Translations under genes and position numbers: made by a program
Assembly (NCBI GenBank): GCA_015660855.1
Contig: JACSDG010000001.1
Span: forward strand, 1 to 64,000
Direction: 5' to 3'
DNA: 64,000 nucleotides
Origin: Magnetococcales bacterium
GTDB lineage: Bacteria > Pseudomonadota > Magnetococcia > Magnetococcales > UBA8363
Notes under the pieces: generated by a model
Database searches by the model: none
Seen by the model: the letters and a program-made list of their open reading frames with translations, nothing else
Told to the model about the DNA's origin: nothing
Shown here: one piece after another, positions 1 through 51,300 of the stretch
How positions within the stretch are numbered: position 1 is the first letter of the stretch
Layout of the letters: every line of letters begins with the position of its first letter

Positions 1-139
1 TGCGGGGGTCCGGGGGGAGGTTCTCCCCCCGGCGGAGGTTTGGAGGCGGAGCCTCCAAGGTTTTTCTTTTGACTTTGATTTTGACTTTCCTGCCCCCCAA
101 GGGGGGTCAGGGGCGCAGCCCCAAGATTTTGATTTTCTT
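1..139 (+). repeat. Composite GC-rich repeat, copy A (left end at window edge)
   Basis: tgcgggggtccggggggaggttctccccccggcggaggtttggaggcggagcctccaagg, then a ttttgactttgattttgac tract, then ccccccaaggggggtcaggggcgcagcccc. Same module order as 13420-13595. Confidence 0.85.
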
Positions 140-185
140 ACACCTGATTCTTTATTTTGTCTCAGCATCTTGATAATAAGGACAT

Positions 186-392
186 TATACCCGTCGGGCA
201 AAAGAATCAAAATCAAAACCCTGGGGCTGCGCCCCTAGACCCCCCTTGGGGGGAAGTAAAATCAAAGTCAAAATCAAAGTCAAAGTCAAAATCAAAATCA
301 AAGTCAAAGTCAAAGTCAAAAGAAAAACCTTGGAGGCTCTGCCTCCAAACCTCCGCCGGGGGGGATGATCCCCCCCGGACCCCCGCAATAGT
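186..392 (-). repeat. Composite GC-rich repeat, copy B (inverted relative to copy A) with expanded hexamer tract
   Basis: ggggctgcgcccctagacccccttgggggg, 10 hexamers AARTCA/AAATCA at 259-318, then ccttggaggctctgcctccaaacctccgccgggggggatgatcccccccggacccccgcaat. Confidence 0.85.
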
Positions 393-409
393 TGCGTGTT
401 CGGTATCCG

Positions 410-1978
410 TCATTCTTCCGAGAGGGGGAGTGACGGGCTTAGTTTTTTCTCGATCTGATATAATTTAATTTTGTTGTGGAGCGACTGCCTGGTGATGTCC
501 AGGAGGGTGGCTGCCTGGATTTTATTGCCTTTTGTTTTTTTGAGTGCTCTAAGGATGAGCTTGATTTCGGTCCGTTTGCGGTGTTCGGGGAGGGAGAGGG
601 TGTCGGGTTCAGGGTCATCATGAGGATGGACGGAGTTTGACCGCAGGGAGCAATGTTGTGCGCAGATGGTATCGCCGTCGGGGGTGAGGGCGACTAGGCG
701 TTCGACTTCGTGCTGCAACTGGCGGACGTTGCCAGGCCAGGGGAAATTTTCAAACAGTTCCATGACCTCGCTGGAAAAGCCGAGGATATGTTTATTGAAG
801 CGGGCATTGATTTCGTCGAGGAACATGAGTGCCAGAGGGACGATGTCTTCGCGGCGTTGGTTAAGGGGTGGAATGGTAATATCGACGGAGAACAGTCTGA
901 AGAAAAGGTCTTCTCTGAATTTGCCTTTGCTGACTTCTTCGCGCAGATCCCGGGAGGAAGCACTGATGATGCGGAATTGGTAGCGGTGAATTTTTTGTCC
1001 ACCGAGACGGGTTCCTTCACTTTCCTGGATGGCGCGGAGAAACTTAGGCTGAATGGAGAGGGGCATGTCGGAGATTTCGTCGAGAAAAAGCGTTCCCCCG
1101 GAGGCTTCTTCAAAGCGACCCATGCGTGAGGAGACCGCTCCGGTGAAGGCACCTTTTTCAAAGCCGAAGAATTCGCTTTCCATCAAGGTTTCGGGGATGG
1201 AGGAGCAGTTGACGGCGACAAAAGGTCGGTTGCGACGGTCTTCGGCAGATTCGTGGATGAGGCGGGCGATGACCTCTTTGCCGGTGCCACTGGCACCGGT
1301 GATGAAAACGTTGACAGGGAGAGGTCCGACTTTGCTGGCAATATCAAGAACCTGTCGCATGGGGTAGGAGGAGGCGATGAAGCGGTGCTTTCCCTTCAAT
1401 ATTTCGCCGGTACGGGTGATCTCTTCGTGTACGCCACGGGATATGCGGACGATTTCGTCACTGACGCGGTTATTTTCGATGGAGAGTGCCAGAAATTTGA
1501 CGATTCGCGTTAGCAAGGCCGCGTCGGCTTCGTCGAAGTCGAAAGGGTCGATTTTGTTAAGAATCTCGACGGCACCCAGGGTGTAGTTTCCGACGATGCT
1601 GATGATGGGGACGCAGAGTATATTGCGGGTGATGAAGTCGGTTTTTTTATCGACTTCCTGATGGAACCCTTCGCTTTTATCCAAGCGGCCCTGGATGACG
1701 GTTTTGCCGGTGGTGATGGCTTTCCCGACGATGGAACCATTTTTTGGGGCGATGATTTCTTTTTCCTTGAGGCCGGTACCAAACTTAAGCCAGATATCGT
1801 CGGATTCGGCATCGGTGAGAAAAACCGAGCAACGTTCCGCCTTGAACAGTTGCGGGAAAATTTCGACAAAAAACTGCATGAGGTCTTCGTAATCGCGGGA
1901 GGCCCAGGCGCGATTGATGCGGTCGAGGAGCGACTTTAAATTGACGAGCCTCTGGTGTATGTCACCGGGCTTGGTCAT
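410..1978 (-). CDS. sigma54-dependent transcriptional activator, GAF + AAA+ + Fis-type HTH
   Basis: 522 aa; GASGTGKEVIARLIHE Walker A, ESEFFGFEKGAFTGA (GAFTGA loop), GGTLFLDEIS, C-terminal NKIQAATLLDITRQSLHNKIK Fis helix-turn-helix; N-terminal GAF-like region. Confidence 0.95.
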   Translation of the reverse strand: MTKPGDIHQRLVNLKSLLDRINRAWASRDYEDLMQFFVEIFPQLFKAERCSVFLTDAESDDIWLKFGTGLKEKEIIAPKNGSIVGKAITTGKTVIQGRLDKSEGFHQEVDKKTDFITRNILCVPIISIVGNYTLGAVEILNKIDPFDFDEADAALLTRIVKFLALSIENNRVSDEIVRISRGVHEEITRTGEILKGKHRFIASSYPMRQVLDIASKVGPLPVNVFITGASGTGKEVIARLIHESAEDRRNRPFVAVNCSSIPETLMESEFFGFEKGAFTGAVSSRMGRFEEASGGTLFLDEISDMPLSIQPKFLRAIQESEGTRLGGQKIHRYQFRIISASSRDLREEVSKGKFREDLFFRLFSVDITIPPLNQRREDIVPLALMFLDEINARFNKHILGFSSEVMELFENFPWPGNVRQLQHEVERLVALTPDGDTICAQHCSLRSNSVHPHDDPEPDTLSLPEHRKRTEIKLILRALKKTKGNKIQAATLLDITRQSLHNKIKLYQIEKKLSPSLPLSEE

Positions 1979-2245
1979 AGGGGTGTCCCATGGGTGTCAA
2001 TGGAATGGACGGCACTGCCAGCTTAACATTCGGTAATGTGCCAGTAAATATACTGTACTCAACTGTTCGTAACAATGAGGAAAAATATTTAGACTTTTTT
2101 TTGCCCATTTTACATCAGGAAATGGGGTTGGCCATAAGATTTTTTGATTTTCATTTTTTCCATTGATGTGTAATGATATGAATAAATTGAAATATTTTAA
2201 ATGGTTGCGGGGAGGAGGGGTGGGCTTGATGACGGATTAAAAAAA

Positions 2246-2260
2246 TGGCCTGAAAGTTGC
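2246..2260 (+). promoter_or_regulatory. Putative sigma54 (-24/-12) promoter
   Basis: TGGCCTGAAAGTTGC against consensus TGGCACGNNNNTTGC: GG and GC elements intact with correct spacing, 49 bp upstream of the 2309 ATG and next to a sigma54 activator gene. Confidence 0.65.
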
Positions 2261-2308
2261 CCTTGGTGGTCTGGTCATTGAATGCGAGTTTAACCAGGAG
2301 GACCGGAC

Positions 2309-2575
2309 ATGTTAGGCAATGGCAGGGCGGGATGGTTTCGTGGTGGCGTAGGTTTTTTGGTGATGAGTGGCATGTTGGGGACGGCAACCCCGGCGATGGC
2401 GGCACCGCAGGATGCGGCGATCGTTTTGGTGGGGCTTATATTGGGTGGTGCCCGGGATCTGGGCGGGCATAAGATGGCGGTACGGACGGTTTCGTCGGGC
2501 AAGGTGTTGAAGCAACCGGTGGGCACGGTATTGGCACCGGGTAGCGTCGCAGTTCCCTCCAAGGGTTACCCTTAA
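2309..2575 (+). CDS. Small exported protein of unknown function
   Basis: 88 aa; RBS-like aggagg upstream; N-terminal hydrophobic stretch and AxA-type site (ATPAMAA) suggest a signal peptide; putative sigma54 promoter upstream. Confidence 0.55.
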   Translation: MLGNGRAGWFRGGVGFLVMSGMLGTATPAMAAPQDAAIVLVGLILGGARDLGGHKMAVRTVSSGKVLKQPVGTVLAPGSVAVPSKGYP

Positions 2576-2604
2576 TAGTAGTTCTTCGCAGTTGCAGGGT
2601 CAGG

Positions 2605-2943
2605 TCAACCGGCAGCGATTTTAGTTTGAGTGATTTTGCGGTTACGCACCCCTGCTGGGGGTGTCGTCAACCGTGACATTTGCTGGAAGACCATAACGAC
2701 TTCATTTTCGGGCAGTCCCAGAGCTTCAGCGATAGCGAAAGGATCGGCACCGTCGAGGGCCAGCTCGATGATGCGCGTTCGCATTGAATGAGCGACGGGC
2801 TGGGATCGGTAGTTCAGCAGAAAAATGGTCCTTTCGCAGCGTGGATCCTGGCAACTGTAGCGTTGCTCGCCGTTGGGCTGTTTGCCATATTTGACCACAT
2901 TGAGTCCATTGCAGTCGGGACAGCGTACTTGTGCCAGGGCCAT
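2605..2943 (-). CDS. IS1 InsA-like zinc-ribbon/HTH protein (orphan, no InsB seen)
   Basis: MALAQVRCPDCNGLNVVKYGKQPNGEQRYSCQDPRCE... followed by RIIELALDGADPFAIAEALGLPENEV resembles InsA. Confidence 0.6.
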   Translation of the reverse strand: MALAQVRCPDCNGLNVVKYGKQPNGEQRYSCQDPRCERTIFLLNYRSQPVAHSMRTRIIELALDGADPFAIAEALGLPENEVVMVFQQMSRLTTPPAGVRNRKITQTKIAAG

Positions 2944-3196
2944 GGGGGTTTCCTTGATCTGTGAAGGGTCTGTCTTTAAGACGGATGCTTTAGCCTTCTA
3001 TCTTCAAGGCTTGTGCCAATTTTTTTTCGCCATATTCTTGTTGATAATGTTCGTTTTTTTATAGTTTTCAATTTTTTCGGTAGGCCTTAGAACGGAAAAA
3101 ATTGCCGGGAGGGAGGGGGTAATTACTTCCGATGGCTCAGGGGGGGGGGCGTTTTCTGCCGGGGGGATTATTTCCTCCGGTTGGCAAGGGACAGGA

Positions 3197-5824
3197 TCAA
3201 TCAAAGGAAGTTTCCATGGTTAAAAGCACTTGGTTTTTGCGGTAACTTGTGCCGGCCTGGTTTGAATTTTTTTGCGTCATTTCATATTTGCTGGAAAGTG
3301 AAATGTTGTCGCGAATTTTATAACTGACGCCAATGGATGGCTTCCAAAGCTGGTCCCTCCGGGATTCATTCTCGCCGACGTAACGCGTAAAGGTCCAGTG
3401 GGTCCCAAGATCCGAAGAAACGCTTTCCGTCCAGTCATGCTTCCAAGTCAACGAAAGCTTTCTTTCCACGTTCAAATCGGCTGTCCCCCCGCTGGATTCC
3501 GCAGTGTCCAATCCCGTTGACAGGGTCAGCTTGGAATATTCCAGAGGGCGCCATGTTAACTCTCCATCCCATCCCAAACTGGAAAAATCACTATTAGAAT
3601 CTGTATTGTCAAACCGCTTCTCCCTGGTTCCAACCTTGACCTTGGTGCTAAAGACATCACCGGGATCCCACTGCGCGCCTATATAATAAAACAGATTAAA
3701 ACTGTTCTGTGCGGTGCGGATGGCGTAATCAAAATTTGTGTATTCCAGGCCAGAAAGCCAATGGGTCATCTCGCTGTAATTGTAGGTTAGCTCCAGTTGG
3801 TTGCCAACCTCTGTCTTTTCAAGATTTCCGGTGATGTCATGGTTGTTGGTATAGATGGTATTCTCCCAACGGCTGGTAATTCTGGAGCTGATGATGGACT
3901 CTGGGTTGCCCAAGGTGAAAGATCCCTCGGTTTTTGGTTTTTGCCATAAATTGGGGGTCTGCGTGCCGGGCAATTGATCATCGGACCCACGATCATCATG
4001 TCCTGTCTGGTAAGACGCCTTGATGTCCATCCCCAGCCTTTCATTTAGGGCCATTTTCAGGCTGGTCTTAAGAGATCCATCTGAAAAATTATCTGCGGAT
4101 GAGCCTGGATAATAGCCAAAATCTCCATTATAGCTTGTCTCCAGATTGGATGACCCCCACTCGGTGCTCCAGGAAATACCTGGTTTCAGTCGCAAAGTTT
4201 CTTTCGATTGGGCGTCGTTTTCGGTATTGAAATAATTGTCGTTGTATCCCATCTCCGTATTCAGGGTAAGACGCACGCCAGAGGATTCCAAAGGATTGGT
4301 ACCGCCTGTCGAAGAATCGCTGGTCCCCGAAGAACGGGGCGCAGAAATATCCTTGATTTCGGACGGCTTGTCGATAATTTTCTCCGCTTTGTTTTCGGAG
4401 ATTGGGGAATCCGTTAAAACAGAACTTTTTTCTTCCGGTGGGGAAGGGGGTTGGGAATGGGACGCATCTCCAATGGCGAGGGATGGCGGTGTCTGTTCCT
4501 GGATGGTTTTTTCCTCGGGAAGACGGGTAGCGTCGGCACCCAAGGGTTGGTAAAGAGGGAACTCGGTTTCGCGGATGAGGGTGTGGATCCCGTTTTGTGG
4601 ATCGCGTTCCATATAGGCTGTTCGCAATTGTTCCGCTTGTTGCCTGTCGGTAAACTTTCCGATGTTGACGGTATACATTGCGGAATGAAGTTTTCCAGGA
4701 ACAAGGAGCAGATAGGGTTTGTATCCTTTGCTTTCCAACTCTGTCAGGGCGTTATGGGTGTTTTCGATGGCGCGAAATGATAAAACCTGCACCGAAAAAA
4801 ACGATACAGGGGATTCTGGGTTTGGTGACAGACGGGGGTTGTCTGGGGTGGTTGGTCCGTCCGAAACAGGTTGGTCGGTCGTCCCAGCGTTTTTTACAGG
4901 ACCCTCTTCTGGGGGAGGGTTTGCGGTTTCAAGAGGCGTTTCGTTGTCTTGCGCGGGTTTCTCCGCGAAAAAATGGGGGGATTGGGTCTCGATAGGTTGA
5001 AAAAGAGTGACTTCAGTTTGGCGTATCTGTGTGTTGCGGGCATTTGGCCCGTCTTGTTGCATTATGGTCGCTTGCAGTTGTTCCGCGCTCTGTCTGTCGG
5101 CAAAATTTCCTACGTTGACAGTGTACATCGCGGCATGGCGTTTCCCAGGAATCAAGAGCAGGTAGGCCGGGTGCCCCTTGTTTGCGGTAGACAGCAGTGC
5201 ATTTCTGGCGTTTTCAATGTTAGGGGAGGAAAAAACCTGCACGGAATAAATAGTTTCGGATGGGGTTGGCTCGGTAGGGCTGGACCCGGATTTTTCAACC
5301 GGTTCCGTGAGAGTGTAATCCAATTGCAAGGGACCCATATCGGTTTTTTCATGGGTCGTTGCAGCAGGGGGGAGACCAGGGACCTTTTCCATCGTTTCCC
5401 CCATGGTGGAAACAAGGGTGCCATGATCGTGGATGGGGCGGAAAAGAGGGGCCTCGGTTTCGCGTATTCGGGCGTTGCCGGTCTTCTCCGGATCGCGTTC
5501 CATGAGCACGGCCCGAAATCGTTCCGCCCGTATTTTGTCGCTGAACCTGCCTATGTTGACGGTGTAGGTGCTCAGGCGGCGTTTTCCTGGGACAAAAAGC
5601 ACATAGGGCTTGTATCCCTTCTTTTCCAGGGTTCGCAATTCTTCAAGGGCAAAATCAAGGTTGATAAAGGTTGAAACCTGTACAGAAAAATAGGAGGGGA
5701 TGGGGGTTGCGGAGACTGGCAAGGATGAAAGAATGCAGGTAAAAAGGACCACAACTGCCGTAAATGCCAAACATTTCCGGAAGGACCACATTTTTTTCAG
5801 ATGTGGGTGGGTAATCCTGTTCAT
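3197..5824 (-). CDS. Three SPOR-type repeats fused to a C-terminal outer-membrane beta-barrel (EPS-associated barrel type)
   Basis: 875 aa; signal peptide; three homologous blocks (YFSVQVSTF...YTVNIGRFSD; IYSVQVFSS...YTVNVGNFAD; FFSVQVLSF...YTVNIGKFTD); C-terminal alternating barrel-like sequence ending LLTMETSFD. Confidence 0.8.
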   Translation of the reverse strand: MNRITHPHLKKMWSFRKCLAFTAVVVLFTCILSSLPVSATPIPSYFSVQVSTFINLDFALEELRTLEKKGYKPYVLFVPGKRRLSTYTVNIGRFSDKIRAERFRAVLMERDPEKTGNARIRETEAPLFRPIHDHGTLVSTMGETMEKVPGLPPAATTHEKTDMGPLQLDYTLTEPVEKSGSSPTEPTPSETIYSVQVFSSPNIENARNALLSTANKGHPAYLLLIPGKRHAAMYTVNVGNFADRQSAEQLQATIMQQDGPNARNTQIRQTEVTLFQPIETQSPHFFAEKPAQDNETPLETANPPPEEGPVKNAGTTDQPVSDGPTTPDNPRLSPNPESPVSFFSVQVLSFRAIENTHNALTELESKGYKPYLLLVPGKLHSAMYTVNIGKFTDRQQAEQLRTAYMERDPQNGIHTLIRETEFPLYQPLGADATRLPEEKTIQEQTPPSLAIGDASHSQPPSPPEEKSSVLTDSPISENKAEKIIDKPSEIKDISAPRSSGTSDSSTGGTNPLESSGVRLTLNTEMGYNDNYFNTENDAQSKETLRLKPGISWSTEWGSSNLETSYNGDFGYYPGSSADNFSDGSLKTSLKMALNERLGMDIKASYQTGHDDRGSDDQLPGTQTPNLWQKPKTEGSFTLGNPESIISSRITSRWENTIYTNNHDITGNLEKTEVGNQLELTYNYSEMTHWLSGLEYTNFDYAIRTAQNSFNLFYYIGAQWDPGDVFSTKVKVGTREKRFDNTDSNSDFSSLGWDGELTWRPLEYSKLTLSTGLDTAESSGGTADLNVERKLSLTWKHDWTESVSSDLGTHWTFTRYVGENESRRDQLWKPSIGVSYKIRDNISLSSKYEMTQKNSNQAGTSYRKNQVLLTMETSFD

Positions 5825-6148
5825 ACCGATTCAGGGCAAGGTATTCTTCGGATCGGAAGGGAGCGAAAATGGAACAAAGCCGTTTTGGACCTGATGCGCA
5901 TGTCCTGCTTTTCCCCCATTTTTCGTAATTTTTTACGGTAGTTCCACCCCCGGATGGACGCTATTGTGGGGCTATACGCAAAAAGCATGCTAAACAATCA
6001 GGTCGCAGGCTATTCCAACCCATTTTCTTTAAAGGATATTTTTTCATATGTCAGGCCGAGAAAATTACCATGATTGTTAATGATAAATTTACGAAATTAT
6101 CCTGCATGAGGATGAATCTGAAGATTTACTATAATATTGGATATTTAG

Positions 6149-7927
6149 ATGCGGGTCATTCTCGGAATTAACGCCTATCATGCCGACGCAGCCGCTGCCC
6201 TCCTGATCGATGGGCGTCTCGTCGTCGCGGTGGAGGAGGAAAGATTTCGTCGTATCAAACATTGGGCCGGATTTCCCTCCCATGCCATACGCTGTTGCCT
6301 GGAAGCTACAGGCATTCCCCTTGAAAGGGTGGATGTCGTCGCCATTAACACCGATCCGCGTGCCAATATGGGGGCGAAAATTATGTTTGCCCTTAAATCT
6401 GTCACCCATCCGGGGTTTCTCCGCCATCGCCTTCAAAGCGCACGCAAACGTTTTTCCATTCGCGACGAACTCCATCCGCTGTGTTCACCTGGATTTCGTT
6501 TTTTCGGAGACATCGTCCGTATCGAGCACCACCAGGCTCATCTTGCTTCCGCTTTTCTCGCTTCTCCTTTCGACCGGGCGGTGACACTTTCCATCGATGG
6601 TTTTGGCGATTTTCGTTCCAGTGCGTGGGGAATGGGGGTGGACAAACGCTTCAGTCTCGACGGTGGCATCAATTTTCCCCATTCACTGGGCTTGTTTTAT
6701 CAGGCGTTAACCCAATATTTGGGGTTTTTAAATTATGGCGATGAATACAAAGTGATGGGATTGGCTCCTTATGGTGCTCTGAAGTACATGGATGAAATGG
6801 AAAAAATGGTGCGCTTGGGAGATCGTGGTTGTTTTAGTCTGGATCTTGATTATTTTATGCATCATAAACATCAGTCGGTTTCTCATTGGGAGGGGGGACT
6901 CCCCGAACTGGCTCCCCTGTTTAATAAAGAAAACATGACCAGACTTTTAGGAAAACCGCGTTTTCCTGGGGAACCTTTGTTGCAGCGCCACAAGGATATT
7001 GCCCATTCGGTGCAGGCGATGTATGAAAAAGCACTTTTTCATCTTCTTGGTTATCTCCATGAAATCTATAATGAAAAATCACTGACTTTGGCTGGAGGGT
7101 GTGCCATGAATTCGGTTGCCAATGGCAAGATTTTGGCCAACACCCCGTTTAAGCATCTCTATGTCCAGGCCGCTGCCGGAGACGCCGGGGGGGCGGTGGG
7201 GGCGGCCATGATGGTCTGGATGCGGCAGCAAACTGGGCCGACCTTGGAGTTGACCATGCGGCATGCTTATTGGGGCCCCGCTTTTTCCAACGAAAAAATT
7301 GGAGAATGGATTCATCAGCAAAGTGACGATCTGGAAAAATCGGGCTGTCTTGTGCTCCGAATGGAAAATGATGCCGCCGTCATCGATTGGACAGTGGAAC
7401 AGATTCAGGGGGGAAAAGTGGTCGGATGGTTTCAGGGGGCCATGGAATGGGGCCCGAGGGCTTTGGGAAACCGTTCCATACTGGGCGATCCTCGCCGGGC
7501 CGACATGCGCGAAATACTCAACTCCAAGATTAAACGGCGCGAATCCTTCCGTCCTTTCGCCTCTTCCATTCTGCGTGCGAGGGTTGGTGAATGGTTCGAT
7601 GCGGATGTCGATTGCCCATTTATGACGCAGGTCTTTCCAGTCCGGCAAGAAAAACGAACCCTGATTCCTGCAGTTACCCATGTCGATGGTTCTGGCCGTC
7701 TGCAAACGGTAACCGAGGAACAAAATCCTTTATTCTTTAGACTTATCGAACACTTCTACCATAGAACAGGGGTGCCTCTGTTGTTAAATACTTCGTTTAA
7801 TGAAAACGAACCGGTGGTGTGTCATCCCCGGGAGGCTTTGGCGTGTTTTCTGCGCACCGAGATGGATTGCCTGATTGCCGGGCATTGGATTGTTTATCGT
7901 GGTGCTTATGTTTTCCAAAAAAAATAA
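6149..7927 (+). CDS. NodU/CmcH-family carbamoyltransferase
   Basis: 592 aa; ILGINAYHADAAAALLIDG, EHHQAHLASAF, LTLAGGCAMNSVANGKI, EWGPRALGNRSILGDPR, LLLNTSFNENEPVV motifs. Confidence 0.93.
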   Translation: MRVILGINAYHADAAAALLIDGRLVVAVEEERFRRIKHWAGFPSHAIRCCLEATGIPLERVDVVAINTDPRANMGAKIMFALKSVTHPGFLRHRLQSARKRFSIRDELHPLCSPGFRFFGDIVRIEHHQAHLASAFLASPFDRAVTLSIDGFGDFRSSAWGMGVDKRFSLDGGINFPHSLGLFYQALTQYLGFLNYGDEYKVMGLAPYGALKYMDEMEKMVRLGDRGCFSLDLDYFMHHKHQSVSHWEGGLPELAPLFNKENMTRLLGKPRFPGEPLLQRHKDIAHSVQAMYEKALFHLLGYLHEIYNEKSLTLAGGCAMNSVANGKILANTPFKHLYVQAAAGDAGGAVGAAMMVWMRQQTGPTLELTMRHAYWGPAFSNEKIGEWIHQQSDDLEKSGCLVLRMENDAAVIDWTVEQIQGGKVVGWFQGAMEWGPRALGNRSILGDPRRADMREILNSKIKRRESFRPFASSILRARVGEWFDADVDCPFMTQVFPVRQEKRTLIPAVTHVDGSGRLQTVTEEQNPLFFRLIEHFYHRTGVPLLLNTSFNENEPVVCHPREALACFLRTEMDCLIAGHWIVYRGAYVFQKK

Positions 7928-7959
7928 TTTTTAGTTTTTTTAATAATTCGGTTTTAATT

Positions 7960-8004
7960 ATTGCGGGGGTCCGGGGGGAGGTTCTCCCCCCGGACCCCCG
8001 CAAT
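7960..8004. repeat. 45-bp palindrome (minimal copy of composite-repeat terminal module)
   Basis: ATTGCGGGGGTCCGGGGGGAG-GTT-CTCCCCCCGGACCCCCGCAAT: 21-bp perfect arms, 3-nt loop. Confidence 0.9.
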
Positions 8005-8216
8005 ACTTTTAAAGAAAAAAAAGGGGGGGGGACTGAACGGTTACCTTGCAAAGTGTGTATAATTTTTTTTTGCCAGACAGCTTCTCATTCAATTCCGCCA
8101 CCACCTGACGGCCCCCCTTCGGCGGTCAGGCGGACGGAGTAGGTGCGACGGGTGGTGGACATGGTTGATAAACCAAAATAGAGTCTTTATTCTGGTCCAA
8201 GAAAAGGAGACATGAC

Positions 8217-8486
8217 ATGAAACTATCAGAACAGGTTAAACCCATCAGCTATTTGAAGGCCCATGCACCCGAGGTCATTCGCGGCTTGGCAGAAGGCAAC
8301 AATCCCGTGATCATTACTCTCCATGGGGAGGCCAAAGCGGTTCTACAGGACATTGAATCCTACGAACAGACCCAGGAAACCCTGGCCATGCTCAAGCTGT
8401 TGGCCATGGGCAATCAGGAGATTGATCTGGGCGAGGTTGTTCCTGCCAAAGATGCCGTTAATCGCCTGCGTAACCGGAAGGCATGA
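8217..8486 (+). CDS. Phd/YefM-family antitoxin (no partner toxin adjacent)
   Basis: MKLSEQVKPISYLKAHAPEVIRGLAEGNNPVIITLHGEAKAVLQDIESYE is typical of Phd/YefM. Confidence 0.85.
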   Translation: MKLSEQVKPISYLKAHAPEVIRGLAEGNNPVIITLHGEAKAVLQDIESYEQTQETLAMLKLLAMGNQEIDLGEVVPAKDAVNRLRNRKA

Positions 8487-8501
8487 ATCGACATGTCTTT
8501 T

Positions 8502-8593
8502 GATCAGAATTCCGGGGACAGTATATCCATTTCCCTACCGCAATCTGGATCAGAATTCCGGGGACAGTATATCCATTTCCCTACCGCAATCTG
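8502..8593. repeat. Perfect 46-bp tandem duplication
   Basis: gatcagaattccggggacagtatatccatttccctaccgcaatctg at 8502-8547 and again at 8548-8593. Confidence 0.95.
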
Positions 8594-8698
8594 GACTCCA
8601 TGGACACCATACTCGACCAAGTTGTATGACCTCCGCAGTTTTTTTGTCGGAAACCGGCCAAATTTATTTTCCATAGAAGCGAATCGCGAAAGTCGGGC

Positions 8699-8747
8699 CA
8701 GGGGCGCAGCCCCAGGGTTTTGTTTTTTTTGTCCGAAGGGCGCAATG
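8699..8747 (+). repeat. Partial composite repeat, copy F
   Basis: aggggcgcagccccagggttttgttttttttgtccgaagggcgc matches the right-hand module of copies A, C and D. Confidence 0.7.
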
Positions 8748-8762
8748 TCTAGAGTCAAAACC

Positions 8763-8805
8763 CTGGGGAAAGAATTCCCCAGACTCCTTCTTTTTTTTTC
8801 AATAG
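8763..8805 (+). terminator. Possible rho-independent terminator
   Basis: ctggggaa-agaa-ttccccag hairpin (8763-8782) followed by a T-rich tract. Confidence 0.4.
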
Positions 8806-8843
8806 TTTTCCGGTCTCTACGCGCAATCCGAGGCCAATCCGAC

Positions 8844-10088
8844 TTATCCAGGCCCGCCCCCATTGACAAATTGACCGAGAACTTCCCTCCAGGCCGCCAT
8901 GGCCTGTTTGTAATCATGGTTCGCCAATAACAGGGATCGCGCATTGTCGCCAAGTTTTTTTCGCATTTCCAAATCATGGCGCAGGGCAAGGATCTGATTC
9001 GCCAAACCTTCGGCATCTCCGACGTTGACATGCACCCCGCAGCGATATTTTTGTATCAGCCCGCTGAGTTCTCCCTCGGGGGCACCCACATAAACAATCG
9101 GTTTGCCTGCGGCGGCGACGCCATAAAATTTGCAAGGGACACACAAACCTTCGAGGGAGGCCATGAGCGAAACCAGATGAACATCGGCTACGCTCATGGA
9201 TTCGGCAAGGGTGTCACGGGATTGGTAAGATCGAAATCGGACGTTTTTCAATCCTAACCTTTTGACTTCATTTATAATCCATGGCAGACGAACGCCACCA
9301 CCGACAAATTCAAAGACAATCTCGGAATGATGCTCGATCTTCTGTGCGGCTTCAAGGATGGTATTAAAATCATGCGCCCGCCCCATGTTGCCGGAATATC
9401 CCACCACAAAATATTTTTCCAGTCCCAATTGGTGTCGGAGCAGATTTTTTTCCAATGCCACCGGGAAAATACGTGTGCTGTCGGACCAGTTGGGTAGTAC
9501 CCGGATGCGCTGGGGATGGATGTTTTGTCGGCGCAGAGCCTGGGCCATTCCTTCCGAAATCGCTACGTTGATCTCTGCTCCCGTTAGAGAACGATTTCTG
9601 AGGCGGCGAAGAATTCCCGCCATGACTCCGCCCAGGCCAATGGTTCCCAGGTTTTCCGCAACTTCCGGGAAAAGATCCTGGAGCCAGTTGACCAGGCGAG
9701 CATTGCGAAAACGGATGACAGGGAGGGCTATGACAGAGGCCAGGGGGGGATCGGTTTTACAAACAACCGTGTCACCTTTACGAACAAAAAACAGCAGCTT
9801 GATGAAAAGAGAAAAGTAAAAGGTAAGATAATCCATCAAGCGGCCAACCATGGTGTAACGACCGAAATGGGTCGTCCAAAGGCGATGGACCAGGACTCCG
9901 TTGACCTGCTCAAATGGGGGCAGTCCGGCGGATGGATCGTCAATACGCATCCTGGATGTCACTATGTGCACCTCAGCGTGATGCGATGCAAGATCAAAGG
10001 CAAGGTCGGACAGAAGTTGACTCGTGGCCGAATGGTCGGGATGGAAATAACGGTTGATAAAAATGATCCTCCCCAACCCTCCCTCCAT
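8844..10088 (-). CDS. Glycosyltransferase family 4, WcaI/WbuB-like
   Basis: 414 aa; INRYFHPDHSATSQLLSDLAFDLA N-terminus, VVGYSGNMGRAHDFNTILEAA. Confidence 0.88.
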   Translation of the reverse strand: MEGGLGRIIFINRYFHPDHSATSQLLSDLAFDLASHHAEVHIVTSRMRIDDPSAGLPPFEQVNGVLVHRLWTTHFGRYTMVGRLMDYLTFYFSLFIKLLFFVRKGDTVVCKTDPPLASVIALPVIRFRNARLVNWLQDLFPEVAENLGTIGLGGVMAGILRRLRNRSLTGAEINVAISEGMAQALRRQNIHPQRIRVLPNWSDSTRIFPVALEKNLLRHQLGLEKYFVVGYSGNMGRAHDFNTILEAAQKIEHHSEIVFEFVGGGVRLPWIINEVKRLGLKNVRFRSYQSRDTLAESMSVADVHLVSLMASLEGLCVPCKFYGVAAAGKPIVYVGAPEGELSGLIQKYRCGVHVNVGDAEGLANQILALRHDLEMRKKLGDNARSLLLANHDYKQAMAAWREVLGQFVNGGGPG

Positions 10089-10547
10089 TGAAAACCCCTG
10101 TTTTGTCTGCTCCCGGGACTGCGGAACATCCGTTTCTCGACTTGGTTAATCATTGTTGGTTAACTTACGGGAGTGCGGGCCACAAAAAACCTTTGAGATC
10201 CCCGACGACATCCGATGAGGAATTTTTTGATCGACAACGACCTGTCCAGTGATTTTCATCGCGGGGCCAATGTTCGATTTCAGGCTGCGCCAACCCCCTT
10301 GCCAACTCTCCCCATGCAGGAGAAAGCTAACACACATTTCCACTACTTTACAACACGCACCTTATGTCTTTGTTCGCATCCCAGGCAGTATTTTTCTTGA
10401 GGCAACGCTTTCTTTATGGTTGGCCGATTCGATCCTGGAAGGTTACAATGGTTGCCGCTGGAGTCAAAAGGGTCGCGATCCGACCGAGGATTTCGTAGCT
10501 TGGCTTTCGCGGGTGTTCCATCGATTATTGCAGGATGGGTTTATCAA

Positions 10548-11144
10548 ATGATGGTGAACGGTCAAGACGCAGCAATGCAAACAATCCCGCATCGTTTGAT
10601 GCGTTGTGTGGCACATGTGCTTGTTTTTGTAATTGTTGCGTTATTGGTTTCTTCCGAGGGCCTGTCTTCGGACAATACGACCTATCGTTTGGCCGCTGGC
10701 GACAAAATCAGTATTCAGGTCTTCGGAGAGCCGGATTTGAGCAGTGATTTTCTTATCGGAGAATCGGAGTCTATCACGTTTCCCCTTCTCGGCCAGGTTC
10801 GGGTCGGGGGGCTTACGGTGCGAGAACTGGAACAGTTGGTCACCGCCCGATTGAAAGGACGGTTTTTGGTTAACCCCGGAGTCAGTGCCCAGGTCACCGA
10901 ATATCGAAAATTTTTTATTAAAGGGGAAGTCAATCAGCCGGGCGGGTTTCCCTATATTCCCGGTCTGACTCTGCAAAAAGCGGTCAGTCTGGCGGGAGGT
11001 TTCACCAACCGGGCCGATAAAGGCAAAATATTTATCCGTGGAGATCGGGATGGTCCAGACGAGAAAAATGAGAAACAACCCTCCAATCTTGATGATTTCG
11101 TTTTCCCTGGAGATATGATTACTGTGGAAAGACGATTTTTCTAA
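10548..11144 (+). CDS. Polysaccharide export protein, Wza-type (ORF-track start at 10416 likely too early)
   Basis: YRLAAGDKISIQVFGEPDLS, FPLLGQVRVGGLTVRELEQLV, FFIKGEVNQPGGFPYIPGLTLQKAVSLAGGFT. ATG at 10548 precedes a signal peptide. Confidence 0.9.
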   Translation: MMVNGQDAAMQTIPHRLMRCVAHVLVFVIVALLVSSEGLSSDNTTYRLAAGDKISIQVFGEPDLSSDFLIGESESITFPLLGQVRVGGLTVRELEQLVTARLKGRFLVNPGVSAQVTEYRKFFIKGEVNQPGGFPYIPGLTLQKAVSLAGGFTNRADKGKIFIRGDRDGPDEKNEKQPSNLDDFVFPGDMITVERRFF

Positions 11145-13411
11145 TGAGTACCGATCTGCACGCGTTGTTCCCCCTGATCAACGAAACCAAACGTGAAGAA
11201 AACCGTTTGCGCCTTATTTGGCAGAGTATCCGCGCTTATCTTTGGAGCATCATCTTTCTGGTGGTCGGGGTTTCCATTCTAGCTATGCTTATGGTTTCCT
11301 CCATCAAGCCGAGCTATCTGGCGACAGCCACACTTCTCATCGAAAACAAGCCAACCAAACTGGTCTCCATCGATGAATTGTATGGTATCGACGGACCATC
11401 CCGCGAATATTTCAATACCCAGGTTGCCGTCTTGCAATCCCGTCAAATGATGGATCGGGTTGTCGTCGCCCTTGGGCTTGACGAACACAGTGAATTCAAA
11501 CCAGCCTCTACGAGCCATCGATTCCATTGGCGCGATTATGTGCCGGATCTGGTCAAAGAGTTGGTCCAGCTTGGAACGGTGGATACGCGATCCCAGGATA
11601 CCCCCCAGTTGCTGGAGAAAAAAAAACGCAACGGTCTTATCGCCCAACTGCAAGGCCAAATGAATATTTGGCACGTCCCGGCCAGTCAATTACTTAAAAT
11701 CTCCTTTGAATCCTATGACCCGGAGTTGTCTGCCCAGGTCGCCAACACCATGGCCGAAGTCTATATTGCCAGCAACCTGGAGGCGCGGCAAAACATCAGT
11801 AGCAAATCGAGCAGTTGGCTCAGTGAAAGGCTTTCTGGTCTGCTAGAAAAATTAAAAATATCCGAAAGCCGATTGCAGGATTATCGCGAACGGCATCACT
11901 TGGTGGACGTTCAAGGGGTCAACAGCATCGCTTCCAAGCAGTTGAATGAGCTGACCACTTCGTTGATGCAAGCGCAACGTGAACGCAATGAAAAACGACA
12001 ACTGTATGAAATGGTGGACCGGGCCAATAAATCCATGAGTGCCCTGCTTGCGATTCCGGCCATTTTGAACAGTCCCGTCATTCAGGAACTGCAAAAGCTT
12101 GAAGCCACCAAAGAGCGCGAAATGGCAGACTTGGTGCAACGATACGGGCCGGAGCATCCACGCATGATATCGGCCAAGTCCGATTTGTCATCGGCCAGGA
12201 ACAATTTACAAAAACAGGCCTTGATGCTTGCCGATGCCATTGTTCAAGACTATCGTATTGCCGCATCCAATGCGTCGGGGGTGGAGCAACGTTTTGAATC
12301 CGTCAAAAAGGAGCTGCAACAGATCAATCGTGAGGAGGCGGAACTCGATGTTTTGCAGAGGGAGGTGGCTACCAACCGGCAGCTCTACAATCTTTTCCTT
12401 ACCCGTACCAAGGAGACTGATGCTACCGGTACCGTGCAGGCGAATGATATACAGGCACTGAATGCTCGTGTTATCGATCCGGCTATCGCCCCCATGGCCC
12501 CCAACAAACCCAATAAAAAACAGATTGTTCTTTTTACCGCCTTAACGACACTGGTAATTGCTGTCTTGTTGGCACTCTTGTCAGAAAACATGAACGATTA
12601 CATCCGTTCCACCGACGATATAGAACAAAAACTAAAACTTCCCTGTCTGGGAACCGTTCCTCTGGTCGTGGATAAACGTTGGAAAAAAGAGGCGGTAACC
12701 ATGGGGCAGTTATTTATCAACCAGGATCATTCTCCATTTTTTGAATCCATCCGCACGGTGCGCGCTGCGTTGATACTTTCCGAGCAGGAACGAAAGTTTC
12801 GGGTGATCGCCATCACATCCACCGTACCTCGGGAGGGTAAAAGCACTATTTCTGCCAACCTTTCTTTGGCCATGAGTCCCATGGAGAAGGTTTTGCTCAT
12901 TGATGGCGATCTCCGGCGACCGTCCATTGCCAAAATTTTTGGCATCGATAAGGATTCTCCCGGATTATCCAATCTGATCAATGGTACGCAACCGCAGTCC
13001 GCATGCCTTCATGATATTCCGGGGACCAACCTGACTGTGATGCCTTCCGGCGATCAGCCTCCCAATCCCCATGTGTTGCTCTCCTCCAAGGTTTTTCAGG
13101 ATTTGTTGAAACAGTTGTCCGAACGGTTTGATCGGGTCATCATTGATACGCCGCCGACCCATGCTGTGGCTGACAGCCTGATCATCGGTGCCATTGCCGA
13201 CGCCAACATCTGTGTCTGTCATGCGGAATCGACGCCGTTTCCTATGATTCACACTTCCATTGCCCACATGCGCCGCACCAATGTTCCCATCGTTGGCGTG
13301 GTGTTGAATCAATTCAAGTCCAAACGACGGCATGGTTATTATTATTCCAGCTATTATTCCTATGGCGGCTATAATTATTCAAAAAAGTCAGGTGGGACCA
13401 AGGGGAGCTGA
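11144..13411 (+). CDS. Polysaccharide co-polymerase / BY-kinase, Wzc-type
   Basis: 755 aa; Wzz-type N-terminus, GNVR-type region, Walker A VPREGKSTISANLSLAM, Walker A' LLIDGDLRRPS, VIIDTPP, C-terminal tyrosine cluster YYYSSYYSYGGYNY. Confidence 0.93.
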   Translation: MSTDLHALFPLINETKREENRLRLIWQSIRAYLWSIIFLVVGVSILAMLMVSSIKPSYLATATLLIENKPTKLVSIDELYGIDGPSREYFNTQVAVLQSRQMMDRVVVALGLDEHSEFKPASTSHRFHWRDYVPDLVKELVQLGTVDTRSQDTPQLLEKKKRNGLIAQLQGQMNIWHVPASQLLKISFESYDPELSAQVANTMAEVYIASNLEARQNISSKSSSWLSERLSGLLEKLKISESRLQDYRERHHLVDVQGVNSIASKQLNELTTSLMQAQRERNEKRQLYEMVDRANKSMSALLAIPAILNSPVIQELQKLEATKEREMADLVQRYGPEHPRMISAKSDLSSARNNLQKQALMLADAIVQDYRIAASNASGVEQRFESVKKELQQINREEAELDVLQREVATNRQLYNLFLTRTKETDATGTVQANDIQALNARVIDPAIAPMAPNKPNKKQIVLFTALTTLVIAVLLALLSENMNDYIRSTDDIEQKLKLPCLGTVPLVVDKRWKKEAVTMGQLFINQDHSPFFESIRTVRAALILSEQERKFRVIAITSTVPREGKSTISANLSLAMSPMEKVLLIDGDLRRPSIAKIFGIDKDSPGLSNLINGTQPQSACLHDIPGTNLTVMPSGDQPPNPHVLLSSKVFQDLLKQLSERFDRVIIDTPPTHAVADSLIIGAIADANICVCHAESTPFPMIHTSIAHMRRTNVPIVGVVLNQFKSKRRHGYYYSSYYSYGGYNYSKKSGGTKGS

Positions 13412-13419
13412 CGTAAAAA

Positions 13420-13595
13420 ATATTGCGGGGGTCCGGGGGGGATCATCCCCCCCGGCGGAGGTTTGGAGGCGGAGCCTCCAAGGTTTTGGTTTTGAACTTG
13501 ATTTTGACTTTGATTTTACTGCCCCCCAAGGGGGGTCTAGGGGCGCAGCCCCAGGGTTTTGATTTTGTTTCTTTGCCCGAAGGGCATCATGTTCA
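13420..13595 (+). repeat. Composite GC-rich repeat, copy C
   Basis: attgcgggggtccgggggggatcatcccccccggcggaggtttggaggcggagcctccaagg...ccccccaaggggggtctaggggcgcagccccagggttttgattttgtttctttgcccgaagggcatcatgtt. Confidence 0.9.
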
Positions 13596-13639
13596 AGTTA
13601 GCGCATATGGGGCGAAGCCCCCAAACCAACCCCCTTGCC

Positions 13640-15175
13640 TCACAACGTCCCACCCCAAATCCCACTTCCAACCCTGAACTGAATCGCCTCGGCCATGTGC
13701 TCCACCCCAATGTCACCAACCTGCGCCAGATCGGCGATGGTTCTGGCCACACGCAACAACCGGCTGTGGGCACGCGCTGAAAAGCCCAACTTTTTCCCTG
13801 CGTCCAGCAATATCTGTCGCGCCGGACCGACAAGGGCGGTGTGACTCTCCAATCCCTTTCCGCTCAACGCCGCGTTGCGTATCCCCATACCGTTGCGCTC
13901 ATACTGCCGCCCCCGTGCCCGCATGACCCGCTCGCGCACCTTCTCGGAAACCTCTCCCCTGGGCAACTCCACCAATATGTCGGTGGGGACCGGTGGCACA
14001 TCCACATGCAGATCGATACGATCCAACAGGGGACCAGAAATGCGTGATTGATATCCAATGACCTGGGAGGGTGAACAACGACATGGACGGCTCCCATTAC
14101 CCAGGTGACCACAGGGGCATGGATTGCAAGCCGCCAAAAGTTGAAAATCGGCGGGAAAACGCACCGTATAGGCGGCACGCGATATGTGCGCCTCCCCAGA
14201 TTCAAGAGGCTCCCGCAATACTTCCAATACCGTCCGGCTAAATTCGGGGATCTCATCCAAAAACAACACCCCCTTGTGCGATAAACTCACCTCCCCCGGG
14301 TGGGGACTACCCCCCCCGCCCACCAAAGATACCTTGGAGGCGGTGTGGTGGGGACTGCGAAACGGACGGTTGGCAATGAATGGCCGACTCGGAGACAACC
14401 GACCGGCAACCGAATGAATCGCTGTTACCTCCAGTGCCTCATCCAATGACATCTCCGGGAGTATCCCAGGCAACGCCCTGGCCAAAAAAGTTTTTCCCGA
14501 CCCAGGCGGTCCAGTCATCAGCATGTTGTGCCCCCCCGCCGCCGCAATTTCTAGGGCACGCTTGGCATATTCCTGTCCCTTAATCTCGGCAATATCGGGA
14601 ACTTCCGCCCTGGCCTCCTCTTTCCAACCGCGCCAATCGGTGGGAACCAGCGACGGCAGTACCGATTCCCCCAACAAATGCCGGACCACATCCAATAATG
14701 TCTCCGCAGCGTACACCACGACATCAGGGGTCAAAGCGGCTTCACTACCGTTATCCTTGGCCACCACCATGCGGGAAAACCCATTTTTCCGGGCAAACAA
14801 CGCCGCTGGTAACGACCCGGGAACCCCCCGCAAACGCCCGTCCAAAGACAATTCACCAAAAAACAAACACCCCGCCAAAGATTCTCCGGGCAACTTTCCC
14901 ATGGCCCCCAACAATCCCAAAGCCATGGGAAGATCGTAGGAAGACCCAACCTTGGGCAAATGCGCCGGGGCCAAATTGACAATGATCCTTTTCGGCGGCA
15001 AATGAAAACCCGAATTGTTTAGTGCCGCGCGCACACGATCCTTGGCCTCGCGTACCGCCCCCTCCGCCAGGCCCACGATGCCCAAGGTTGGCAAACCGGA
15101 ACCAACGTCCACTTCCACCTCGACAGGGACGGCTTGTATCCCGTCCAGGCCAACCGTCTGCACACGGGCCAGCAT
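13640..15175 (-). CDS. comM: YifB/ComM-family Mg-chelatase-like AAA ATPase
   Basis: 511 aa; MLARVQTVGLDGIQAVPVEVEVDVGSGLPTLGIVGLAEGAVREAKDRVRAALNNSGF, GPPGSGKTFLARALPGILP. Confidence 0.95.
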   Translation of the reverse strand: MLARVQTVGLDGIQAVPVEVEVDVGSGLPTLGIVGLAEGAVREAKDRVRAALNNSGFHLPPKRIIVNLAPAHLPKVGSSYDLPMALGLLGAMGKLPGESLAGCLFFGELSLDGRLRGVPGSLPAALFARKNGFSRMVVAKDNGSEAALTPDVVVYAAETLLDVVRHLLGESVLPSLVPTDWRGWKEEARAEVPDIAEIKGQEYAKRALEIAAAGGHNMLMTGPPGSGKTFLARALPGILPEMSLDEALEVTAIHSVAGRLSPSRPFIANRPFRSPHHTASKVSLVGGGGSPHPGEVSLSHKGVLFLDEIPEFSRTVLEVLREPLESGEAHISRAAYTVRFPADFQLLAACNPCPCGHLGNGSRPCRCSPSQVIGYQSRISGPLLDRIDLHVDVPPVPTDILVELPRGEVSEKVRERVMRARGRQYERNGMGIRNAALSGKGLESHTALVGPARQILLDAGKKLGFSARAHSRLLRVARTIADLAQVGDIGVEHMAEAIQFRVGSGIWGGTL

Positions 15176-15282
15176 GCGATCCCCTCACCCTTTATAGGAG
15201 CCGGAAAACAAACACCCCGCCCCTCAACGATCAAAACCCCACATTCCGGCACCCTCACAACCACCTTAGCCCATTTTTAATC

Positions 15283-15522
15283 TCAGGCTTTTTCCATCTC
15301 CGCCACCTGTTTTTCAAGCTGCTCCAGCTTGATTCGTGTCTTGCCCAGAAGTTCCCGGGCAGCGTCAAATTCATCCCGGCTCACCAAATCAAAATGTTCT
15401 ACCCCCTCCTGGACCAAATCCCGGATTTTGCGCGTCATCTCCTCCCGGGTCTGCCCAACCATGTTAAATACCCCCAACACATTCTGGGTGATCTGATCCA
15501 ATATCGCATTATCAATTTGCAT
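15283..15522 (-). CDS. ubiK: UbiK-type accessory factor (BMFP domain)
   Basis: 79 aa from internal ATG: MQIDNAILDQITQNVLGVFNMVGQTREEMTRKIRDLVQEG... coiled-coil C-terminus. The upstream ORF extension lies in repeat D. Confidence 0.8.
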   Translation of the reverse strand: MQIDNAILDQITQNVLGVFNMVGQTREEMTRKIRDLVQEGVEHFDLVSRDEFDAARELLGKTRIKLEQLEKQVAEMEKA

Positions 15523-15588
15523 CGTTTTTTCCTCTGGATAGGCCCGGACTTGAAAACAGGTTTCAATCCCTCGAACGGGCCTGTGAAC

Positions 15589-15685
15589 ATGATGCCCTTC
15601 GGGCAAAAAAACAAAATCAAAACCCTGGGGCTGCGCCCCTAGACCCCCCTTGGGGGGCAGTAAAATCAAAATCAAAGTCAAAAAC
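15589..15685 (-). repeat. Composite GC-rich repeat, copy D (inverted relative to copy C)
   Basis: catgatgcccttcgggcaaaaaaacaaaatcaaaaccctggggctgcgcccctagacccccttggggggcagtaaaatcaaaatcaaagtc. Confidence 0.9.
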
Positions 15686-15712: not shown

Positions 15713-16639
15713 TCACTGCGGTCGCACCTCCGGTTCAACAAACTCAAGACCAGGCCGCCCATTAAAATAACCATTGCAAAATGGCTCACCGCCATTCAGT
15801 TCCAACAAACGGCGAAACGCCTCCCCACCACTCATGCGTCGTTGCAGCCGATCCTTCCAAACCGCCACAATTTCCGCCATCCCCAGACTCTGGGGCGACA
15901 AACGCACCACCCCCACCCCCATGGCCTCTAACCGATCCGTCTCGTCCACAAGGTTGTAAACCCGATGCGACATGGTTTGGGTGCCGTTGATGGCAAGGAA
16001 AGGAACCCCCTCCTGGGTGCGCATGGTCATACCATCGGCAAAATCGCCGCACTTGAACTGACAATTGGCCTTGGAATATCGAAACGCCCGCGCCGTGTAA
16101 CAACGGGCCGAAAACGTCAGCGGAAGCTTGCCATAGGCAAAAATTTCCGTTTCCACCTCCCCGCCATGCCGCCGGATCATGTCCCCCATCGCCAAGGCCG
16201 ACAGCTCCACCGGAAACACCACACGTCTGACACCCACCCGCTGGAGAAAAACGACCGTTTCAGGGTTGTAGGTGGTGATATGCGGCCCCGCAACCATAGG
16301 CCTGCCCTCGCCTACAGCAATCCCCCCCATATCGTTGGCCTCCAACCACCAACCACCCGACCGGGCGGCAACGGCCATCCGGTACAATAAATCCTCCTCC
16401 CCCGCATTCATGACCAATCCCAGGGTAGAAAACACCACCTCCTTACCCGACGGTCCCAACTCCCTGGCCAAATCAACCATCTCCTCCGGGGTCAAGGATT
16501 GTCGTTTGGAACAAACTACCTCGCCAATATAAAGAATATCCACCGGGGTTTCAAAAGCCATCCGCCGATAAAAATCCTTCAGGGCATTTTTTCCCCAGTC
16601 AAATTGGCACGGCCCCAGACTGATTCGCATCACTGCCAC
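15713..16639 (-). CDS. ubiV: U32-family protein, UbiV-like (O2-independent ubiquinone biosynthesis)
   Basis: 308 aa; four Cys in VVCSKRQ and FSARCYTARAFRYSKANCQFKCGDF; overlaps the upstream ubiU. Confidence 0.85.
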   Translation of the reverse strand: MAVMRISLGPCQFDWGKNALKDFYRRMAFETPVDILYIGEVVCSKRQSLTPEEMVDLARELGPSGKEVVFSTLGLVMNAGEEDLLYRMAVAARSGGWWLEANDMGGIAVGEGRPMVAGPHITTYNPETVVFLQRVGVRRVVFPVELSALAMGDMIRRHGGEVETEIFAYGKLPLTFSARCYTARAFRYSKANCQFKCGDFADGMTMRTQEGVPFLAINGTQTMSHRVYNLVDETDRLEAMGVGVVRLSPQSLGMAEIVAVWKDRLQRRMSGGEAFRRLLELNGGEPFCNGYFNGRPGLEFVEPEVRPQ

Positions 16640-24148: not shown

Positions 24149-24411
24149 GAAATATTCTCCCCGGTCCGCCAAATCGTCGGTCATGCCTCGGAGGGGAACC
24201 TGCAATTCGATTGCCAATTATCAAAACCTACACAATTTCAATAGTTTTAGTCTTTACTCTCCCAGGACCAACAATCCTGGTGTCAAAAAACATTGACCCA
24301 TTCTCCATTGAGAGAAATTGACAACACGTCATGTATTTGCATAGGGTACGACCAAAGGAACGGTCGAAAGGTCAACATTTCAAGTCCAGAACACACCCAT
24401 AAGGGACCACC

Positions 24412-31336: not shown

Positions 31337-31399
31337 AGATCACCAAATAAAGACCATCCAGAGGATCAGAAACCATCAAAAACGCCTTCGTACAAAAAC

Positions 31400-31440
31400 C
31401 AAAACCTTGGTGGTTTCGCCCCCAAACCCCCATAGGTAAT
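31400..31440 (-). repeat. Degenerate composite repeat, copy G
   Basis: aaaaccttggtggtttcgcccccaaacccccataggtaat is related to the left module of copies A and C. Confidence 0.45.
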
Positions 31441-31547
31441 GAAGCTTTTTGTTTAAATTCAGAACAAAGAACTTTAGGTTTTCGTATCCCCCCCCCCTAG
31501 ACATCCGCAATGATTCTTGGTATGCTTTATTTCATAATACAGTTAAA

Positions 31548-51291: not shown

Positions 51292-51300
51292 CCCAGGGCC

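Follow-up and report, generated by a model that had tools for sequence, protein, structure and literature searches.

What sustains a composite hairpin repeat that recurs through a Magnetococcales genome, and which element makes use of it? A first-pass annotation of the window (the whole stretch of 64,000 nucleotides analysed) had described dispersed copies sharing one order of six modules, and proposed either a single strand recognised by a transposase or a 3′-end RNA structure. It did not suspect group II introns, the self-splicing elements shown here to use the repeat. Our best reading, which we hold to be probable, is that a REP-like palindrome family without a RAYT provides group II introns with a standing homing site.

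A two-hairpin core in a mosaic family

Self-comparison of the window yields blocks that cover every position at which copies had been listed, and the repeats are not chance matches (Table 1). The core, 67 nt long, comprises two palindromic hairpins, H1 and H2. H1 is built from GTCC, a G-run, an ATNAT apex, a C-run and GG, and H2 reads TTTGGAGGC-NNN-GCCTCCAA; aligning 20 divergent copies identifies GGGGTCC as the hairpin foot. H1 is the most conserved hairpin and has no T-run. H2 with its T-run scores as terminator-like, although shuffles average 0.6. In this genus, the core is extended by species-specific modules. The family is a mosaic, because most copies in the window are partial and the single module order is found in three only: with all six modules at 13420-13595, with a degenerate module 6 at 186-392 and without module 6 at 1-139. 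At gathering scores, Rfam returns only tRNAs from the window, its best sub-threshold match reaching 20 bits against a cut-off of 37.

GNA triloops, described at first pass as a shared feature, are indeed kept in modules 5 (GCA in 62/63 copies of this genome) and 6 (GAA or GCA in 73/79). They do not extend to H1, whose apex is a TNA within a near-perfect palindrome, nor to about half of H2. The H2 loops of this genome are GGA in 53, AGA in 46 and other in 4 (n = 103), and across taxa 43 of 102 (~42%) have a GNA triloop.

Table 1 Repeat copies and hairpins in the 64-kb window
Feature	Position	Strand	Self-comparison block	Content and context
Composite copy, cut by contig start	1-139	+	1-393	H1 (AGGTTCT-apex variant), H2 (GGA loop), T-rich tract, H4, H5; no module 6
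Composite copy, reverse orientation	186-392	-	1-393	H1 with GATCAT apex, H2 (loop AGA; TCT on +), a long T-rich stretch, H4, H5 and a degenerate H6; just past the 3′ end of sigma-54 regulator gene 410-1978(-); R1 match at 324-390, 95.5 bits
H1 alone, full 45-bp palindrome	7960-8004	-	7935-8051	3′ of carbamoyltransferase gene ending at 7927
Partial copy	8699-8747	+	8695-8810	H5 (GCA loop) and degenerate H6
Complete copy, six modules	13420-13595	+	13413-13612	~9 nt past stop codon of Wzc-like kinase gene 11144-13411; R1 match at 13421-13487, 94.7 bits; 13422-13590 has at least 40 near-full-length copies in the genome, 89-97% identity
H1 hairpin CCGGGGGGGATCATCCCCCCCGG	13433-13455	+		In other copies, a group II intron cuts the same sequence after CCGGGGG
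H2 hairpin, GGA loop, then GTTTTGGTTTT	13462-13482	+		Terminator-like
Partial copy	15589-15685	-	15580-15685	T-rich tract, H4, H5, H6 (modules 3-6); 3′ of peptidase-U32 family gene 15713-16639(-)
Related but different, degenerate module	31385-31474 (hairpin 31400-31440)	-	31385-31474	GGGGGTTTGGGGGC-type hairpin; R1 25.3 bits
Degenerate H1 and its left-flank module	51299-51372 (H1 51301-51336)	-	51299-51372	

Stem covariation and the level of pairing

Double changes occur in 13 of the 18 stem pairs, with 54 double-change cells against 1 one-sided, and 0 of 500 shuffles scored as high. The compensatory changes that the first-pass annotation had suggested looking for are abundant in a broader set of 126 distinct copies spanning several phyla, where 98.4% of the 436 double-change cells are paired, with the reservation that fitting alignment A4 to the model favours pairing. 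Covariation strongly supports a constraint on the folded or palindromic form, as had been suggested, although mutational correction of palindromes could also give the pattern. We infer that the pairing that matters is probably at the DNA level, as a palindromic double strand or an extruded or single-stranded hairpin, because G-T pairs make up ~0.9% of standard pairs in the repeat stems versus 6.9% in 15 tRNAs of the same loci.

Distribution and mobility

The suggested scan of this genome and its relatives found at least 107 scored copies here and the repeat in 47 of 48 genomes of the magnetotactic order Magnetococcales, many with at least 107; such whole-genome counts are lower bounds (at least 40 or at least 107 scored) and draw also on ~390 kb of stretches chosen for holding the repeat. 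Exact H1 is also present in Desulfovibrionaceae, Aureimonas and a few Clostridia. Copy number varies within the genus, from 7–15 in five genomes (G001 and G003–G006) through 44–55 in two (G007 and G002) to the at least 107 here. With two palindromes in its 67-nt core, many copies and a mostly extragenic location (a predicted gene is overlapped by 16 of 180 repeat blocks), the repeat fits the broad sense of a REP, an extragenic palindrome of ~20–65 nt in many copies.

Comparing orthologous junctions in six genomes of the same genus, 19 of 20 have no R1 match at E 0.01 and one has a weak match of 23 bits. Mobility of the repeat is suggested by its dispersal and by this presence/absence. We found no target-site duplication or exact empty site of the repeat, the relatives being too diverged for exact empty sites, and no enzyme mobilising it. 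Inspection by eye of 51 aligned copy ends for the terminal inverted repeats (TIRs) of a MITE gave no general TIR; one copy, at the ruvB locus (L025), has a TIR-like end.

Group II introns occupy the repeat

At least 40 repeat copies in this genome, counted from scored 5′ ends, contain a common intron, with 35 distinct upstream flanks in the stretches covered. Its position is always close to the H1 apex and within the 5′ arm, between CCGGGGG and GGATCATCC. The 5′ exon is identical wherever it was read, the 3′ exon is the H1 apex (G)GATCA(T/C)CC in 13 of 14, and every copy with a junction read lies in the one dispersed repeat family. The common type is a group II intron, with domain V/VI, D1–D4 RNA, an RT/maturase and fixed junctions (GTGTG...AY). 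RF00029 and RF02003 matches are above cut-off. In genome G013 the RT is frameshifted, and TIGR04416 RT/maturase matches its two halves, each below the 300-bit cut-off. In the assembly of the present genome, the intron body is not joined to its ends. Relatives of the intron in other genomes have sites at H1 or H2 apices.

The common intron does not insert behind terminators as group IIC introns do, the site being inside the H1 5′ arm and not 3′ of a hairpin. A candidate EBS1 (CCCCTG) for EBS1–IBS1 pairing occurs in G013. We do not claim a preference of the intron for ATNAT over the AGGTTCT variant of H1 (13:0 versus 77:25 among intact copies, Fisher p = 0.07).

A second group II intron, at locus L397, encodes an intact 447-aa RT (374 bits to TIGR04416, the family to which it is assigned) and is flanked by CCCCCAAG and TTTGGTTTTTGCCC. 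A hairpin of the repeat lies immediately 5′ of it and the T-run follows it, which is the position at which class C introns insert.

Terminators, transposases or mutation

The 3′-end RNA structure raised at first pass would mean that the copies are intrinsic terminators or 3′-UTR RNA hairpins, a family that moves or recombines and spreads because it ends transcripts. Placement speaks for this: copies begin a few nt past stop codons, mostly where there is no resident terminator, and in tandem gene pairs of Magnetococcales 27 are sense versus 5 antisense (p = 0.0001). H2 with its T-run has the sequence form of a terminator, and the L397 intron, with its intact RT, is placed precisely at the boundary of hairpin and T-run, as is usual for class C introns at terminators. 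We nevertheless consider the explanation unlikely. G-U pairs are nearly absent, G-T versus A-C mismatches (40:29) show no strand bias, and copies have inserted into tight co-directional junctions such as ruvB–thioesterase and the operon-like rimM–trmD. The sense bias disappears in Desulfovibrionaceae (10:17), and it is H1, the best conserved hairpin, that has no T-run.

Template-switch correction of imperfect inverted repeats can yield perfect palindromes and double changes without selection. If quasi-palindrome correction by intrastrand template switching made these stems, the family would be plain selfish or neutral DNA; the dominance of double changes and the rarity of G-T intermediates agree with this, as do 69 one-sided versus 81 double changes (model-aligned counts) in young copies of this genome, as expected if correction acts later. 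Such an origin looks quite improbable given that unpaired features are also kept across phyla, namely the H1 apex TNA (~100 of 126), the GTCC foot, the GG after H1 and the H1–H2 order. Barely credible, and largely refuted, is a REP/REPIN mobilised by a RAYT (Y1/HUH transposase), the single-strand recognition first proposed. Short palindromes, high copy number and mosaic arrays would suit it, and this genome has degenerate Y1 fragments, but these are two, both with stop codons; no RAYT link and no intact Y1 domain were found here. Many genomes rich in copies lack Y1 or have it in broken form, and five that score 81 to at least 107 copies (G008, G045, G044, G030 and G026) give no match. R1 matches lie near 1 of 16 Y1 loci of relatives and one of the two fragments here; the hairpin foot has neither a GTAG nor a CGTC tag, and no intact RAYT of this genome is flanked by the repeat.

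In the favoured reading of a RAYT-less homing site, a REP-like family with a core of the near-perfect palindrome H1 followed by H2 would spread as a non-autonomous element through some other activity. Base pairing with the arm's G-run would guide the common intron to its site, and retrohoming into this pre-existing multi-copy repeat would spread it.

Relation to known systems and significance

Neisserial NIME/dRS3 elements are intergenic mosaics of short inverted repeats that serve as insertion sites for other elements. The present family is also a mosaic of inverted repeats invaded by elements, apparently unrelated to them in sequence. With REPs and BIMEs (GTAG- or CGTC-tagged) it shares short, extragenic palindromes in hundreds of copies, near gene ends, in mosaic arrays and as mobile-element hot spots (PMC3733652, PMC1525189, PMC12306157), but it lacks the tag and the RAYT, and combines two palindromes in fixed order, a G-rich 5′ arm and occurrence in several phyla. 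IS elements that target REPs (ISPpu9, ISPpu10, ISPa11, ISPsy8, IS1397 and IS621) always interrupt the repeat at one fixed position (PMC1525189). The break point is equally fixed here, whereas it is a group II intron that inserts; the same survey recorded such introns within REPs for just 2 of 9 cases (P. putida). Group IIC introns insert at intrinsic terminators or attC (Robart 2007, reviewed in PMC4424553); the L397 intron resembles them in having a hairpin directly ahead of it and a T-run after it, unlike the abundant intron, whose site is within the palindrome itself, on the 5′ side of the apex. Explosive spread within a single genome is known from Arthrospira platensis, with 101 group II introns per genome where most bacteria rarely exceed 10 (PMC8919778), but here all junction-read copies are in one dispersed repeat family.

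Newly shown here is the occupation of repeat copies by group II introns. In the literature covered, with most subscription journals outside its scope, we found neither the repeat described nor group II introns reported from Magnetococcales. More tentatively, a palindromic element of several phyla that acts at the DNA level and is moved without a RAYT might form an extragenic repeat class of its own, and its apex region might be a distinct group II intron target beside homing genes, terminators and attC, letting introns reach dozens of copies cheaply for the host.

These findings account for much of the breakage of this assembly. The REP-like family lends itself to study across an order and beyond without RAYTs, and so makes the question of how such repeats spread separable from them. 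As a standing, apparently harmless multi-copy target, the repeat lets a group II intron multiply, and offers a natural system for studying how introns select DNA that is structured or palindromic and how they are retargeted between hairpins.

Paired change in the repeat core

A genome search with bases 13422–13590 scored at least 40 near-full-length copies of the repeat in the 4.52 Mb assembly (238 contigs, with the window as bases 1–64000 of contig C89), and a pattern search for its second hairpin (H2), allowing up to three mismatches, found 494 places versus 157 for a reversed control. The copies reported in the first-pass annotation are real, but the family is a mosaic: most modules are present at only three of the eight places it listed.

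We aligned the core (hairpins H1 and H2) of 20 divergent Magnetococcales copies; its two helices comprise 10 and 8 pairs. Paired cells make up 98.6% of this alignment, with both-side changes at 13 of 18 pairs and 54 double-change cells against a single one-sided change. The covariation exceeded that of every shuffle and was lost when the partner was displaced by 1–3 columns. A wider set of 126 distinct copies from several phyla yields 436 double-change cells and 98.4% pairing, figures in which some lean toward pairing is expected, the alignment having been fitted to the model. The arms change strictly in pairs: the compensatory stem changes that the first-pass annotation proposed as a test are present.

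The predicted fold of H1 and H2 is as stable on one DNA strand as on the other (−21.4 and −21.3 kcal/mol, z about −4.2). G-T accounts for 19 of ~2067 standard pairs in the wider set (0.9%) versus 22 of 321 (6.9%) in 15 tRNAs from the same loci, and one-sided mismatches among own-genome copies show no strand preference (G-T on the plus strand 40, A-C on plus 29; p = 0.23). Few G-T pairs and strand-neutral mismatches thus speak for constraint or correction acting on DNA rather than for a folded RNA, and we infer that the repeat functions as DNA.

Conserved GNA triloops had been proposed for modules 2 (H2), 5 and 6. This stands for modules 5 (GCA in 62/63) and 6 (GAA or GCA in 73/79) of the own genome and fails for H2. 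H2 loops there are GGA (53) or AGA (46) in most of 103 copies; across taxa only 43/102 are GNA, with AGA, AAA, AGC and AAC also frequent. The H1 apex is T-N-A within ATNAT. Its symmetry extends nearly to the centre, a form that fits a palindrome in double-stranded DNA no less well than a hairpin.

Distribution and placement

Scanned over relatives, as had been suggested, a model of the H1–H2 core (R1), built from the 20-copy alignment, matches 47 of the 48 Magnetococcales genomes, many with at least 107 scored copies; within one genus, a genome may hold fewer than ten copies or at least 107. Outside the order, R1 found only two genomes at E ≤ 1e-4 in a 249-genome phylum sample. Among the GTDB matches listed, the exact H1 pattern also occurs in Desulfovibrionaceae (Solidesulfovibrio, Fundidesulfovibrio and Mailhella), Aureimonas, Antarcticirhabdus, Clostridia/Oscillospiraceae and one Dehalococcoidia MAG, many of these with an H2-like hairpin behind it. 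In relatives (L068, L071, L073, L074, L077, L079 and loci of genome G040), a second structure follows H2, running GCGCGC...AAGCC, a TTTTCGC/GCGAAAA hairpin and then GCGCAGCGCGC. It is apparently kept between families of the order, and may have belonged to the element in its ancestral form.

Copies start a median of ~10 bases after the upstream stop codon (simple codon-score gene calls). Between tandem genes, sense copies outnumber antisense by 27 to 5 in the own genome (p = 0.0001) and by 39 to 11 pooled over Magnetococcales; the ratio in Desulfovibrionaceae is 10 to 17, and a preference for sense orientation is therefore not a general feature. We read 20 orthologous junctions in six same-genus genomes, at four loci with speA-, fumarase-, ruvB- and rimM-like genes: 19 lack the repeat and one holds only a 23-bit trace, so gains of copies are recent. 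No exact empty site was readable at these 20 junctions. The ruvB|thioesterase and rimM|trmD pairs (named by sequence recognition, not family search) are separated by only tens of bases in relatives; the own-genome copies therefore interrupt tight, operon-like junctions. The fumarase junction of genome G007 (locus L232, ~1448–1502) carries a native terminator-like hairpin, GGGTCCGGGGAAGATGACCGCCCCCGGACCC, with weak likeness to H1 (23 bits), possibly a hint that H1 arose from, or replaces, terminators.

Neighbouring features in the window
Feature	Position	Score	Remark
Lone Phd/YefM-type antitoxin gene	8220–8486	54.6 bits	Without evident toxin gene beside it
Ankyrin-repeat protein	23072–24217		Its 99-nt repeats account for the direct repeats D2/D3; unrelated to the hairpin repeat

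Candidate mobilising enzymes

The first-pass annotation suggested looking for RAYT/Y1 transposase genes; such a mover is very unlikely. Only two broken RAYT/Y1 fragments were found in the own genome, several relatives with 80 to 107 scored copies gave no Y1 match, and the repeat lies near just 1 of 16 Y1 loci of relatives. The hairpin foot lacks GTAG and CGTC tags (as defined in PMC3733652). The repeat probably spreads non-autonomously. The window also holds an exact 46-bp tandem duplication (8502–8593, GATCAGAATTCCGGGGACAGTATATCC...), which may resemble the flanks of Y1-transposase elements.

Group II introns near palindrome apices

One shared element ends 14 contigs of the own genome, its last 98 nt being group II domains V–VI. 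In 13 of these, the 3′ exon reads (G)GATCA(T/C)CC, which corresponds to the apex of H1 with its 3′ arm; in the fourteenth it is CGAAGCCCCC, an apex belonging to a different hairpin of this family. The 5′ exon ends GGGGGTCCGGGGG at every junction read (two with extra Gs), and together these reads place the intron at CCGGGGG|GGATCATCCCCCCCGG. At least 40 scored matches to its 5′ end, with 35 distinct upstream flanks, all lie at or near contig ends. At least 40 contig ends (for example, C101, C96, C99, C182 and C229) fall inside this intron, whose body is not joined to them, and it is a main cause of assembly fragmentation. Related introns occur elsewhere: ~30 copies in G040, which lie for the most part at the H2 apex of this composite (GTGCAGGGG|CNNNGCCCCTGC), and one in genome G013 at an H1 apex (CCAGGGG|CTATTGGCCCCTGG), with a frameshifted reverse transcriptase (RT). 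Such introns would retrohome by base pairing.

A second intron (locus L397, ~100–2132) encodes an intact 447-aa RT and lies exactly between GGGGGCGAAGCCCCCAAG and TTTGGTTTTTGCCC, a placement known from class C introns, which insert behind terminators (PMC4424553). Three further group II 3′ ends, at L094 (C50), L095 (C93) and L098 (C52), belong to a different type that terminates in ...CCCCTAT; one adjoins a T-rich stretch.

In published surveys, genomes usually hold three or fewer group II introns, rarely more than 10 and at most 101 (PMC8919778). IS elements are known to target REPs; for group II introns in P. putida, a REP was the site in two of nine cases (PMC1525189). The literature searched described no dispersed palindrome that tens of intron copies use almost exclusively for homing. 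REP-like palindromes, and mobile elements targeting these, are known in kind; what is new here is the lack of a RAYT, a two-palindrome architecture across phyla, the strict DNA-level paired change and the repeated homing of group II introns close to palindrome apices.
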